Origin: Pseudomonadota bacterium
GTDB lineage: Bacteria; Pseudomonadota; Gammaproteobacteria; Burkholderiales; JABEVD01
Assembly: GCA_021848825.1 (NCBI GenBank)
Contig: JAJZTQ010000001.1
Location: forward strand, 124,001-188,000
DNA length: 64,000 bases
Reading direction: 5' to 3'
A program made the position numbers and the translations under genes. Positions 54,549-64,000 of this stretch are shown here, one piece after another; within the stretch, counting starts at the first letter, position 1, and the number at the start of each line of letters is the position of its first letter. Below the pieces are notes generated by a model. That model had not been told where the DNA came from and did not search any database. It saw only the letters and a list, made by a program, of their open reading frames with translations.

Positions 54549-55349
54549 TTATCGGGAAAGCGCGTCCACGCTCAGCATGATCACCTCGATCTCTTCGGTG
54601 ATTTCCTCCTGCCTCAAGAGATTGTAGTGCTGCTTGAGCCTTTCTATGCGCTTGTCCATCTGTCTGATCGCATTTTCCATATGGTCGAGCCTGTACCTGT
54701 TTTCGGCCATCAGGCTGCTGCAGAGGGCTTCGTGCAGCGCCGCGTAGAGGTAATGGCCGGAAAGCTTTTCGTAGAATTCAAAAGGTTCGAGATAGAGCAG
54801 CGGCTCGTAAGGATAAGCTGCTTCGGCCGTCTTCTCGGGAAGGGGGAGCAGCCTTCTCTTTGTCACCGCTTCGTCGCCGTGATAGTAGGCGGTGATGCCG
54901 AGGGCTTCTTTTTCGGGGAGCGCACCCTGAAGCATGGCGAGGCGATCGACGATCTTCGTCAGAACGGATTCCACCTCCTCGGCGACATTCGGCCCTTCGA
55001 TCAGGGCCAGTCTTTTTTCCAGCCTTGAATCCAGTTTGCTCCCTATCGCAATGACAGGGATTTCATGGTCGCTTGTTTCGACCAGCCTTTCGTTGAAGTC
55101 ACCGCAAAGCCCTCTTTCGGAACCGATCAGGAGCGCCGTCTCAACCAGTTTGCGCTTTCGCTCGACGCCGTGGAAATGCATGAAATCTGCAGCAGCCCGC
55201 TCTATCGATTTGACCGCGAGCTGTTGCGCCGAAAGGAATCCTGAAAGCTTCCTGATTTCCATGAAAGCGAGATTCTTCATTGCGGACATGATGCCTCTTA
55301 TCTCGTCCAGGCTTGCCAGCGTTGCCTGGAGATCGAGCTGTTTGCTCAT
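54549..55349 (-). CDS. atpG: N-type F-ATPase gamma subunit
   Basis: 266 aa divergent gamma; [27 protein letters not shown]; last ATPase gene of operon. Confidence 0.85.
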
Positions 55350-56755
55350 TCCCCCTCCAGTGCGGATCTCACTTCCGTCAGCCAGCTCTCGCGCGACTCT
55401 GAAAGAGAAAGTCCGGGCAGCTTGGTCATGCGCTTTCCGTTTTCGTTCAGGTCGTCACGCTCGATCAATCCTTCGTTGTAGGCGACGAGCCAGGCGAGCT
55501 GCTGCTCGATCGGCATGGGCGCGAGCCGCTCCTGCTTCAATAGTTCCCTGAGAAGCTGCCCTTTCCTGATTCTTTCTTCCATCCCGGCTTCCAGTTTCGA
55601 CCCGAACCTCGTGAAGACTTCCAGTTCGAGAAACTGAAGATAATCCAGCTTCATTCTTCCCGCTTCCCGTTTCACTGCAGGATGCTGGGCATTCCCTCCT
55701 ATCCTCGAGACGGATTTCCTGATGTCTATCGCGGGAAGAAATCCTTCCGCGAAAAGCTTCGAATCGAAATAGATCTGACCGTCGGTGATCGAGATCAGAT
55801 TCGTCGGAATATAGGAAGCGATTTCTCCCTGCTCGGTCTCGACGATGGGAAAAGCCGTCATGCTTCCGCCGCCATGATGGGATGCGAGGCATGTCGAGCG
55901 CTCGAGCAGCCTCGCATGAAGATGGAAGATGTCCCCGGGGTAGGCTTCTCGGCCCGGCGGGCGCCTGAGCAGAAGGGAGAGTTCCCTGTAGGTTCTGGCA
56001 TGGGTGGTCAGATCGTCGTAGATGACGAGCGTGTCCATTCCGCTCCACATCCAGGATTCGGCGAGCGTGCAGCCTGAGAAGGGGGCAAGATACTTCAATC
56101 CGGGCATGGCCGTCGCTTCCGCCACGATGACTGTGGTATAGGAAAGCGCGCCATGTGTTCTCAATGTCTCTATGGTGTTGACCACAGCCGAGCGCTTCTG
56201 TCCGATGAGAACGTAAACGCAGCGCGTTTCCTTCTGGTTTATGACGGTGTCGAGCGCGATGGAACTCTTTCCCGTGCCGTTGTCTCCTATCAGGAGCTGC
56301 CGCTGTCCGCGGCCTATCGGAATCAGCGTATCGATGATCCTGTTTCCCGTGTAGAGCGGTTTTTCGACGAAATCCCTGCTGAGTATGGGAGGGGAGAGCA
56401 CATCGATCTGCCTTCTCGCCTGAAGATCGGGCATGGGCATGCCGTCAAGCGGAAGCCCCATCGGGTCGATCACGCGCCCGAGAAGGGCGTCGCCCACCCC
56501 TATCGACAGCCTTCTTCCTGAAAGAAAGGCTGATTTCCCGGCCGTCAGATTTTCCGTCTGCCGCAAGAGGATCGCGCCTATCCTTGATGCGGCAAGATGG
56601 AACACGAGCGCCTCGCTGCCATCCTCGATTTCGATTATCTCGTCCATGCTCGCAGAAGGCAGCCCGGTGATCCAGATGATGCCGTCGCCCACCGAAATGA
56701 CTGTGCCCTGTTCGGAAATCCTGAGGGCGAATTCGTAATCAGGAAAGCGGCTCAT
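55346..56755 (-). CDS. atpA: N-type F-ATPase alpha subunit
   Basis: [28 protein letters not shown]-loop; short alpha (469 aa). Confidence 0.94.
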
Positions 56756-57476
56756 TTCTGAAAATCTCGCCGAAATGGGCGAGTTCCTCCTTCAGATTGG
56801 CATCGAGCACCCAGGGGCCCAGGCTGACCTTCAAGCCGCAGACGAGTTCGGGATTTTCGCGATATGTGGCTGACAGGGGATGACCCAGCAGCGCTTCCAT
56901 TTTTCCCTTGAGAAGGGTCCTTTTTTCTTCGGGAAGGGGAAAAGCGCTCGACACATCGAGTGTCCCTTTTGCGTCGATCTGAAGATTCGAGGCCCGTCCC
57001 AGATCTTCCATGAAGACATCGAAGAGCAGGGATTCGAGTTGAGGGGAGGCGAGCCTTGCCAGAAGCTTCGAAGAAAAGGCTGCGCCGAGGAGCAGGGCCT
57101 TTTTTTCCGTTGCCCGTTTCAATTCATCCGCATCCCTGGCGGCGATCGCAATCCGTCTTGCCTTTTCCTTGCTCAAATCGCTATCGAGTTGGACGAGAAG
57201 TCTTTCCCTTTCCGCTTCGATATCCGCAGAGAGTTGCGATTCGAGCGATTGCCTGTGCGTTTCCCATTCCTCGAATTTCCTTTCGTTTCGCTCTTTCAGG
57301 CGCTCAGCTTCTTCCCTTGTTCTTCTCGCTTCGCTGAGGGAAGCTTCTATCGCTTTTTTCCTTGCCGCAATGGCATTGACGATGGGCAGATAGAGGAACC
57401 GCTTGAGGATCCAGACCAGGATCAGGAAATTGACGATTTCGAGCAGGAAGGTGCTCCAGTCGAGTTCCATGGCCAT
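56739..57476 (-). CDS. atpF: N-type F-ATPase b subunit
   Basis: [48 protein letters not shown]; long C-terminal extension. Confidence 0.9.
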
Positions 57477-57479
57477 CCC

Positions 57480-57749
57480 CTATTTGTGCAGCAGGTATGC
57501 CAGAAGCGGATTCCTGAACAGCACGATCAGCACGATCACGAGGACATAGATGGCAAGCGACTCGATCATGGCGAGCCCGATGAAGAGCGTTCTCGTAATC
57601 GATTTTTCTGCTTCCGGCTGGCGGGCGAGCGCATCGAGCGCCTGGCTGATGGCCCGCCCCATGGCGATGGCAGGGAACATCACGCCTATGGCGATGGCCA
57701 GCACTGCTCCTAAAGTCGAAAGGATGGTAAACCAGGTCATTTCACTCAT
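57480..57749 (-). CDS. atpE: N-type F-ATPase c subunit
   Basis: Two TM hairpin with ARQPEAEKSI loop and GLAMIESLAIYVLVIVLIVLF carboxylate helix. Confidence 0.93.
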   Translation of the reverse strand: MSEMTWFTILSTLGAVLAIAIGVMFPAIAMGRAISQALDALARQPEAEKSITRTLFIGLAMIESLAIYVLVIVLIVLFRNPLLAYLLHK

Positions 57750-58407
57750 TTTTCTTCCTTTGCTGGGAGGCGATCGCGCCCGAGACATAGATCAATGCTA
57801 GCATGCCGAAGATGTAAGCCTGGACGACGGCTTCGACGATATGCAGCATCAGGAGCGGGATCGGCACGAAAAGTCCGCCGACGAGCAGAACGAGGAGCGC
57901 CGCCATCTCGAGGCTCATGATGTTGCCGAACAGCCGGACGGCCAGGGCAACAGTTCTGGAGATCTCGCTGATCAGATGGAAAGGCAGAAGGATAGGGCTG
58001 GGGCTCATGTAATGAAGCAGGTAACGCTTCACGCCTTCGCTCTTTATGCCGTACCAGTGCACGGAAAGGAAAACCAGGAAAGCCAGTGCTGCGGTGACGG
58101 ATAGGTTCCCGGTCGGCGCCGAGATGCCGGGAATGATGCCTGAAAGGTTGGCGACAAGGATGAATATCCAGAGTGTGCCGATGAAGGGAAGCAGCATTTC
58201 CGATTTTCCGGGAAGCACTTCCTCGATGGCATCCATCATGACCGTGACGGCGCCTTCGAGTATGGTCTGGGTCGGGCCGGGCTCCTCCGACAGATGCCTC
58301 GTCGAGAGCCATGAAAAAAGGAACAGCAGGGACATGATGCCCCATGTCAAGACGATGCTCATCGCGATTGAGATCGGTCCGATGTGGAATGACAGTTCCG
58401 GGTTCAT
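57742..58407 (-). CDS. atpB: N-type F-ATPase a subunit
   Basis: MNPELSFHIGPISIAMS...SRTVALAVRLFGNIMS (essential Arg helix). Confidence 0.94.
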   Translation of the reverse strand: MNPELSFHIGPISIAMSIVLTWGIMSLLFLFSWLSTRHLSEEPGPTQTILEGAVTVMMDAIEEVLPGKSEMLLPFIGTLWIFILVANLSGIIPGISAPTGNLSVTAALAFLVFLSVHWYGIKSEGVKRYLLHYMSPSPILLPFHLISEISRTVALAVRLFGNIMSLEMAALLVLLVGGLFVPIPLLMLHIVEAVVQAYIFGMLALIYVSGAIASQQRKKNE

Positions 58408-58672
58408 CCATGCTCCCTGATGAAAAGATAGACGTTGAGGCTGCCGAGGGCGACGCCGAGCACGATGAGGCTGATGCTCCATCTGAAGGAATAGCCTGGA
58501 AGCTGGTTATCCAGCCAGTTTCCGAGATAGGCGCCAAGGATCACCGGAAGCACGAAAAGCAGGGCCAGCGTGCCGAGATAGATGGTCTGGGCGAGAAGCG
58601 AAGGGCGCTCCCTTTCGGCTTGTTTTATCCGCCTTGCCTGCTCTTCGACCCTTCTTTTCAGCTTGTCGTCCA

Positions 58673-58676
<4 letters not shown>
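58404..58676 (-). CDS. atpQ: N-ATPase accessory subunit AtpQ (AtpI/AtpZ-like)
   Basis: 90 aa, two TM helices, between atpC and atpB; GAYLGNWLDNQLPG. Confidence 0.75.
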
Positions 58677-60435
<1,759 letters not shown>

Positions 60436-61997: not shown

Positions 61998-62269
61998 GAT
62001 CCTGCTCCCCTGAAAACGGCAAGCTGACAACCCAGTTTCATTTCAACATTCCCAGATCCCGGCGCGTAAAGGGCCTTATGGATTCCCATGGCGAAAATTC
62101 GCTGTCAAAGTCTTTATGGATTTATCAGATAGATAAGGCCGGAAAATTAAGTAGAAGTTAAGCAAAATTTGAGTAAAATTCCGGAAGCGATTCGGGGCGT
62201 GGACACAGGGATTCTCGAAATAGCGATACAGAGCCGCCCGATCTAGACGAGATAACATGGAGAAAACAA

Positions 62270-64000
62270 ATGAATTTGGGAACAGCCTCGCTGAAGTTGT
62301 TGGGTGCCGCATTGGCGGCGATGGTCGCAGGCTCCGCACTGGCTGATGCGCCTTCGTCCGACCTCGCCCTGGTCAAGAAGGGCGAATATCTGGCTCACCT
62401 GGGCGACTGTGTTGCCTGTCATACTGCGCCTGGCGGCAAGCCGCTCGCCGGCGGGCTGGAAATGAAAACGCCCTTCGGTGTCATTCATTCCACCAATATC
62501 ACGCCGGACAAGGCGGACGGCATCGGCGCCTATACTTTCGAAGAGTTCGACCGCGCGATGCGGCGCGGCGTGGCGCGCGATGGCCACAATCTTTACCCGG
62601 CCATGCCCTATCCTTCATTCGCGAGAATCGCGCAGGATGACATGAGGGCCCTCTATGCCTATCTCATGCATGGCGTGGCGCCCGTATCCGAGCCCAACAA
62701 GCCCAATGACATGAAGTTCCCGTTCAATATCCGCCTGGGGCTCGCAGGCTGGAACATGGTCTTCCTGGATAAAGGCGCCTTCCGCTATGATCCTGCCCAC
62801 AGCCCGCAGTGGAATCGGGGCGCCTATATCGTCCAGGGTCTGGGTCACTGCGGTTCCTGCCATACGCCGCGCGGACTGGGTTTCGAGGAGAAGGCCATGA
62901 GCGATTCCGGCAGCGACGGCAGGTACTTCCTGGCAGGAGCGGATGTCGAGCACTGGCGCGCCGTCAATCTGCGCAATATCTGGACCGGCCCCGAGATCGC
63001 ACAGTTCCTGAAGACGGGTGAGAATAATCGCGGTACGGCCTACGGCGGCATGGCCGAAGTGGTCCACTTCAGCTCTCAGCACTTCACGCCTGGGGATCTG
63101 GCCGCGGTCGGCGAGTACATTCATTCGCTTTCACCCAATCCAGATGAAGCGCCGGGAGCTAACGCCGTGTCGGTGGACGTTGCACAAACCAGCAAGGAGA
63201 TCTATGCCACCCGCGGCGGCCTGGGCTATGTGCAGTTCTGCGCCACCTGCCACCAGAGCGACGGCAAGGGCGCGACCCGCTTCTTCCCCACGCTGGCAGG
63301 CAATACTTCCATCCAGGCAAACGATCCGGCTTCCCTCATCCACGTCATGCTGACGGGCTCCGCATCGCCTCAAACCCTCTCGTCCCCGCATGTTTTCTCG
63401 ATGCCTTCCTATTCCGTGCTGAATGACCAGGAACTCGCGGAAATCGCCACTTTCGTCCGGACGCACTGGGGCAACAAGGGAAGCCCTGTGACGGCGGAAG
63501 AGATTCACAAGATGCGAAAGGCTTTGGAACTGAAGCATGTTGAACCGCCGAAATTCAATCCGCCTCGTTATGCAGATATGCTGAAGAGCGCCAATGCAAG
63601 CCAGCTGATCTACGGCATGCAGCTGATGCGCGATACCAAGCGCCTGCTGCCGAACTATGTGGGAGGCGGACTGAACTGCGACAGCTGCCATATCAATGGC
63701 GGAACGATGGCGCTTGGCTCACCCTATGTCGGGGTCGCGGCCCAGTTTCCGAGCTACAATCCCCGCGCCGGCCGCATCATCGACTTCAAGGATCGCGTCA
63801 ATGGTTGCATGCTGCGTTCGATGGCAGGAAAACCGCTGGACAAGAACTCGAACGAGATGAACGCGATGATTGCCTACATGGACTGGATGCGAAATGGCTA
63901 TCAGATGAAGCAGAAGATCCCTGGCCGCGGCGTCGGGAAAATCAGCAAGAGCATCGTGCCCAACGCGGCGAACGGGAAGGAAGTCTACAATCATTCCTGC
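62270..64000 (+). CDS. Multiheme c-type cytochrome: tri-heme alcohol/gluconate-dehydrogenase-type region fused to TsdA-like region (truncated by window end)
   Basis: Uninterrupted 577-codon frame from ATG 62270 to the window edge: signal peptide MNLGTASLKLLGAALAAMVAGSALA; CVACH (62408), CGSCH (62849), CATCH (63239), CDSCH (63677); TsdA-like DFKDRVNGCMLRSMAGKPL; not in the ORF track because no stop lies in the window. Confidence 0.88.
   Translation, partial: MNLGTASLKLLGAALAAMVAGSALADAPSSDLALVKKGEYLAHLGDCVACHTAPGGKPLAGGLEMKTPFGVIHSTNITPDKADGIGAYTFEEFDRAMRRGVARDGHNLYPAMPYPSFARIAQDDMRALYAYLMHGVAPVSEPNKPNDMKFPFNIRLGLAGWNMVFLDKGAFRYDPAHSPQWNRGAYIVQGLGHCGSCHTPRGLGFEEKAMSDSGSDGRYFLAGADVEHWRAVNLRNIWTGPEIAQFLKTGENNRGTAYGGMAEVVHFSSQHFTPGDLAAVGEYIHSLSPNPDEAPGANAVSVDVAQTSKEIYATRGGLGYVQFCATCHQSDGKGATRFFPTLAGNTSIQANDPASLIHVMLTGSASPQTLSSPHVFSMPSYSVLNDQELAEIATFVRTHWGNKGSPVTAEEIHKMRKALELKHVEPPKFNPPRYADMLKSANASQLIYGMQLMRDTKRLLPNYVGGGLNCDSCHINGGTMALGSPYVGVAAQFPSYNPRAGRIIDFKDRVNGCMLRSMAGKPLDKNSNEMNAMIAYMDWMRNGYQMKQKIPGRGVGKISKSIVPNAANGKEVYNHSC

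Follow-up and report, generated by a model that had tools for sequence, protein, structure and literature searches.

The TsdBA system feeds cytochrome c oxidases, and we know of no settled account of how TsdA enzymes that lack TsdB transfer their electrons to the respiratory chain. In A. vinosum TsdA, Cys96 is a ligand of heme 1 (PMC6879331, PMC5146829), and the C. jejuni enzyme, which carries Asn at the position of A. vinosum Lys208, acts in vivo to reduce tetrathionate (PMC5146829). Among the dehydrogenase cytochromes, the triheme subunit II of alcohol dehydrogenase (ADH) reduces ubiquinone in acetic acid bacteria (PMC9171043). Sequence comparison confirmed that the gene analysed here encodes an ADH/GADH/FDH-type triheme subunit followed by TsdA in one polypeptide. 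We found no description of such a fusion in the open-access literature searched, a mention in Kurth et al. 2016, on the electron-accepting units of TsdA, being possible.

The gene and its surroundings

The window, that is the whole stretch of 64,000 nucleotides that was analysed (G000:C13:124001-188000), ends inside this gene, with about 159 kb more of the contig lying past its edge. On the plus strand the frame 62270-64000 runs without a stop up to the edge, as the earlier note had described (577 codons), and extension of the contig past base 64000 resolved it, with no frameshift, into a gene of 679 codons (L002:2271-4310) whose first stop, a TGA 309 bases beyond base 64000, ends at G000:C13:188309 (L002:4310). 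The full protein holds five CxxCH motifs, starting at residues 47, 194, 324, 470 and 577; the fifth (CAVCHGKNGEG), which had been anticipated at the end of the frame, begins at 63998 and straddles the window edge. The minus-strand ORFs over 62270-64000, suspected earlier to be spurious, are overlapping frames without support, and we dismiss them because the plus frame is kept across species at 44-91% identity. The signal peptide proposed in the note is predicted here as well and agrees with the hydropathy profile, in which it is the sole hydrophobic stretch of a protein showing neither a transmembrane segment nor a hydrophobic tail. The features are as follows.

62259..62262, plus strand: GGAG, plausible ribosome binding site 7 bases 5' of the ATG (direct reading)
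62270..64000, plus strand: pentaheme fusion cytochrome, in-window part (577 of 679 codons), continuing to G000:C13:188309 (ORF reading)
62270..62344, plus strand: predicted cleavable signal peptide MNLGTASLKLLGAALAAMVAGSALA, with probable cleavage after ALA (sequence and hydropathy)
62345..63544, plus strand: triheme cytochrome c module of the ADH/GADH/FDH type, ending near residue 425 (homology and fold)
62408..62422, plus strand: heme motif 1, CVACH, residue 47 (invariant in 30/30 fusions)
62603..62605, plus strand: Met112 (YPAMPYP), candidate distal ligand to one of the ADH-module hemes (30/30 fusions; by homology, not structure)
62849..62863, plus strand: heme motif 2, CGSCH, residue 194 (sequence and alignment)
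63050..63052, plus strand: Met261 (GGMAEV), candidate distal ligand (30/30 fusions; homology)
63239..63253, plus strand: heme motif 3, CATCH, residue 324 (sequence and alignment)
63401..63403, plus strand: Met378 (FSMPSY), candidate distal ligand (30/30 fusions; homology)
63545..64000, plus strand: TsdA module, first part (from residue 426), truncated at the window edge (homology and fold)
63677..63691, plus strand: heme motif 4, CDSCH, residue 470, corresponding to TsdA active-site heme 1 (alignment)
63806..63808, plus strand: Cys513, aligned with A. vinosum Cys96, the Cys that ligates TsdA heme 1 (alignment)
63998..64000, plus strand: heme motif 5, CAVCH, residue 577, first codon; the motif corresponds to TsdA heme 2 (the rest at L002:4002-4013)
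Beyond the window edge: Met626, heme 2 ligand by alignment

The fusion gene stands alone, with an EAL-domain gene about 270 bases upstream; downstream come a small ORF that no Pfam family matches with confidence, and a Maf gene. No sulfur genes lie directly beside it in the host genome. A promoter scan near the gene returned zero sigma-70-like sites, which says little given that shuffles average 1.2, and the GC-rich hairpin with a T run found 3' of the stop (L002:4388-4409) belongs to a type that shuffled sequence gives about as often. A PHROGs search returned no match. Elsewhere in the window, translations read by eye place an ATP synthase operon on the minus strand (54549-60432): beta and epsilon come first, followed by a 90-aa membrane protein and then by a, c, b, alpha and gamma. 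No delta was seen, and the operon looks like the alternative N-type F-ATPase.

Identity of the two halves

Searches against known structures and profiles placed both halves of the protein as the earlier note had expected, and neither fell into an unrelated cytochrome family. Residues 11-417 are similar to the membrane alcohol dehydrogenase cytochrome c subunit of Gluconobacter (PDB 8gy2_B, E 6e-107), the next PDB matches being the glucose, fructose and aldehyde dehydrogenase cytochrome subunits, and three CxxCH in the family arrangement together with the conserved Mets identify this half as an ADH/GADH/FDH cytochrome c subunit. Residues 432-661 match A. vinosum TsdA (4wq7/4v2k, E 1e-43), and residues 428-657 the TsdA part of TsdBA (5lo9, E 5e-29). 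The Pfam families Cytochrom_C and SoxA-TsdA_cyt-c (PF21342, 49.7 bits against a cut-off of 27, with CxxCH at 470 and 577) both scored above their cut-offs. An AlphaFold model of a 91%-identical orthologue (L023; mean pLDDT 70, falling under 50 in parts of the TsdA half; pTM 0.71) recovered in a fold search the structures already found by sequence, 5lo9 included (8gy2_B with TM 0.80 and 4wq7 with TM 0.72, normalised to target). Two other identities were rejected: SoxA, with 55.3 bits against the 110-bit threshold of NCBIfam TIGR04484, and TsdBA of the 5LO9 type, the N-terminal part being triheme and ADH-type and not a diheme TsdB.

The alignment showed the five CxxCH motifs, Met112, Met261, Met378, Cys513 and Met626 to be invariant in 30/30 fusions, Cys513 and Met626 also being invariant in 4/4 unfused pairs of the same genes. 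Cys513, in the position for which the note had proposed a Cys ligand, aligns with Cys96 of A. vinosum TsdA, and Met626 with its Met209.

Distribution and origin

An intact fusion was present in at least 21 of the 400 sampled genomes of the order, with a partial fusion in three more, and the fusion was found also in Thiobacillus, Sideroxydans and Pseudomonas protegens. Plasmid-borne copies occur in Cupriavidus metallidurans (pMOL30), Ideonella, Burkholderia, Rhizobium and Thioclava. In maximum-likelihood trees built separately for each half, all 30 fusions included form one clade (100/99 for the ADH half and 95/96 for the TsdA half); the two modules that the note had read as one polypeptide thus occupy a single frame and behave as a stable unit. 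To judge from these trees the fusion seems to have arisen once. The copies from Pseudomonas and Alphaproteobacteria are nested in a clade whose other members are betaproteobacterial, a sign of horizontal transfer.

Four organisms carry an ADH-type cytochrome and tsdA as adjoining unfused genes (Paenochrobactrum, L040; Paracoccus versutus pBEN, L066; G237; G135). In the first two the genes overlap by ATGA, and the tsdA of the unfused pairs carries its own N-terminal export signal or anchor. Because the fusion TsdA has its closest kin in the TsdA proteins of these adjoining pairs (joint clade 99/98), the operon probably preceded the fusion, and the simplest history is an operon, then a single fusion, then its spread, plasmids included.

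On pMOL30, a metal-resistance plasmid, the fusion gene (L061:7749-10001; protein WP_155877860, locus HXI73_RS00415 in C. metallidurans CH34) lies near czc genes and near genes for an integrase and a MerT-family protein, and is annotated simply as a c-type cytochrome. The labels given to relatives go no further than c-type cytochrome or cytochrome C, so that the function of the fusion, including the copy on pMOL30 of the laboratory strain C. metallidurans CH34, is invisible to genome surveys.

Genomic context of the relatives

The neighbourhoods described here are selected loci and not a counted enrichment. In G228 the fusion is accompanied by Sulf_transp and rhodanese genes (two of each), by a HiPIP gene, and by a further, unfused TsdA that has a diheme cytochrome with it; DsrE genes lie near it in Sideroxydans (two) and in g113, and directly upstream of it in G306; in P. 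protegens an ArsR-rhodanese gene is near. A second, distant TsdA stands beside the fusion in two genomes (L071:10455-11441 and L075:5162-6852), the divergent one at L075 adjoining a TsdB-like diheme cytochrome, so that the two systems occur together in these genomes. The earlier note had suggested looking among the neighbours for a dehydrogenase large subunit or an oxidase: no dehydrogenase lies beside the host fusion, but a bo3 ubiquinol oxidase operon was found about 4.5 kb from the fusion in two relatives (L072 and L073, from G306 and G220), with an MFS transporter and a DsrE gene in between.

In Ideonella, Thioclava and Rhizobium the genes that immediately follow the fusion encode a sensor kinase (phosphonate-binding, HisKA and HATPase_c domains) and a LuxR-type regulator. 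This domain order is the one that was used to find the sensor pairs ThsSR, for thiosulfate, and TtrSR, for tetrathionate (PMC5408782), and TtrRS controls tsdBA in Vibrio (PMC11293645). The top NCBIfam match of the kinases is TtrS (NF040750), nearly full length, and since their scores of 318-333 bits fall below the cut-off of 750 we call them TtrS-like rather than TtrS. The three pairs (L062:10051-12482, L063:10087-12536 and L065:10018-12422) are candidate thiosulfate/tetrathionate sensors of non-enteric bacteria.

The host genome carries soxB, soxA and soxY in a cluster (L084, G000:C48:60000-79000) together with two DsrE-like genes and one gene each of porin-like, rhodanese-like and sigma factor type; a separate 140-aa SoxA-like monoheme cytochrome in this cluster scored 57.9 of 110 bits, well under the SoxA cut-off.

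Proposed function, electron path and alternatives

With one ORF, five heme sites, two homologies, conserved ligands and a single origin seen in the sequences, and with the sulfur-related genes near the fusion in relatives and the sox genes of the host in its favour, the protein is probably an exported (periplasmic) pentaheme thiosulfate dehydrogenase with a built-in relay, possibly reversible as a tetrathionate reductase; its activity, direction, heme order and electron exit we infer as follows. The TsdA half would convert two thiosulfates to tetrathionate at its His/Cys-ligated heme, and the two electrons would pass to the second TsdA heme (His/Met) and from there to the covalently joined ADH-type triheme module, which would fill the place that TsdB has in TsdBA and deliver them to the respiratory chain. 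A likely exit in the host is the reduction of ubiquinone, the role that this module has in alcohol and gluconate dehydrogenases, with another cytochrome as a possible acceptor.

The host oxidases found comprise two bo3 and one bd, both full-length COX1 proteins being of the CyoB type; no cbb3 CcoO (FixO) was found in the host genome, and a cytochrome c1 match is present. Short COX1-like frames of about 210 aa occur at G000:C39:7931-8281, near ccoG- and ABC-transporter-like genes, and at G000:C35:2112-2426. That only quinol-oxidase genes were recognised in the host speaks for the quinone exit there, and we would grant quinone as the electron exit a probability slightly above one third. A general rule that carriers have quinol oxidases only had to be rejected: PF02433 matches above cut-off occurred in 16 of the 21 fusion carriers, six of these matches being short and weak, and the CyoB model found nothing in nine of the 21. 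Carriers with cbb3 but without CyoB, and the lack of a transmembrane segment, mean that quinone reduction is no general rule. Ubiquinone lies at about +90 to +110 mV at neutral pH. The thiosulfate/tetrathionate couple, at +198 mV (PMC9562282), is above it, and the transfer from thiosulfate to ubiquinone would be uphill unless removal of the product or an acid periplasm helps.

With a probability that we place just short of even, the same enzyme would have soluble cytochromes, HiPIP or an oxidase as its sole electron acceptors, quinone never being among them, a reading compatible with the thiosulfate dehydrogenase proposed above. It agrees with the missing membrane-anchoring segment, with the HiPIP gene nearby in G228 and with the presence of cbb3 but no CyoB in most g35 genomes; the oxidase complement of the host, lacking CcoO and with CyoB-type COX1 proteins, speaks against it, as does the fact that the triheme module is a known ubiquinone reductase elsewhere.

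It is rather unlikely that the fusion mainly runs backward, as a tetrathionate reductase for tetrathionate respiration or detoxification in which the quinol pool or bc1 would supply the ADH-type module with electrons for the TsdA half. The position of A. vinosum Lys208 is Val in the host fusion and Asn, Val, Asp or Ala, never Lys, in the 30 fusions, resembling in this the C. jejuni enzyme, a tetrathionate reductase, so that the sequence does not tell in which direction the enzyme runs. Tetrathionate could also be what the linked TtrS-like sensors detect; however, TtrRS also drives the thiosulfate-oxidising tsdBA of Vibrio (PMC11293645), ThsS senses thiosulfate (PMC5408782), and the host combines sox genes with terminal oxidases.

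That the triheme half serves a separate alcohol or sugar dehydrogenase, with the TsdA half as a second, independent input or exit, is very improbable. The strong similarity of this half to dehydrogenase cytochrome subunits would suit such a role, but the host genome (99.7% complete) gave neither a GMC dehydrogenase nor a convincing candidate for a quinoprotein dehydrogenase, its single PQQ_2 match, beside der and hisS-like genes, looking like BamB; no partner subunit (GMC/FAD or PQQ) was recognised in that genome or among the neighbours of the fusion, and no dehydrogenase gene was seen adjoining it on the annotated plasmids. The earlier note had written of a quinol- or alcohol-linked relay: the quinol link is possible, and the alcohol link is unlikely. 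Finally, an assembly or frameshift artefact joining two genes, which the cut at the window edge and the unfused neighbours in some species might have suggested, can be rejected almost with certainty, since the same single frame occurs in independent isolates and complete genomes (P. protegens FD6, C. metallidurans pMOL30), conservation spans the junction and all fusions form one clade.

Returning to the thiosulfate dehydrogenase, this widespread natural fusion names a built-in partner for TsdA and offers five hemes on a single chain, a system that allows one to measure how electrons pass to a relay from a Cys-ligated heme engaged in sulfur chemistry, and its probable operon-then-fusion history makes a clear case of domain fusion. 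If the relay reduces ubiquinone, thiosulfate oxidation would be coupled in a new way to quinol oxidases. A bolder reading, which we hold to be less likely than not, is that of a single-origin, horizontally spread and previously unnamed enzyme class, a one-polypeptide c-type-heme thiosulfate:quinone oxidoreductase that re-uses the ubiquinone-reducing triheme subunit of sugar and alcohol dehydrogenases, which would set the fusion apart from the DoxDA-type thiosulfate:quinone oxidoreductase and from TsdBA.

Comparison with known systems

With TsdA of A. vinosum (4WQ7/4V2K) and C. jejuni the fusion shares the fold, and both heme motifs, the heme 1 Cys and the heme 2 Met align; it differs from TsdA in the 400-residue triheme module in front and, from the A. 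vinosum enzyme, in lacking Lys at the Lys208 position and in a segment after the heme 2 Met about 8 residues longer. TsdBA of Marichromatium purpuratum (5LO9) likewise has an N-terminal multiheme electron partner and a C-terminal TsdA, but its partner is the diheme TsdB, whereas that of the fusion is the ADH-type triheme cytochrome, hence five hemes instead of four, and its sequence match is limited to the TsdA part. ADH subunit II (8GY2) and the gluconate and fructose dehydrogenase subunits (7W2J) have three CxxCH at similar spacing, aligned Mets and about 40% identity; unlike them, the fusion has no dehydrogenase subunit gene adjoining it or recognised in its genome, and its C-terminus runs into TsdA without a hydrophobic tail. 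The unfused pairs (L040, L066, G237 and G135) present the same two proteins in the same order, with the nearest TsdA, but as two overlapping genes and with a tsdA bearing its own export signal or anchor. By its N-terminal domain the fusion is not TsdBA, nor is it an ADH complex subunit in the usual sense; it may work like TsdBA, but with a different, larger and possibly quinone-reducing partner.
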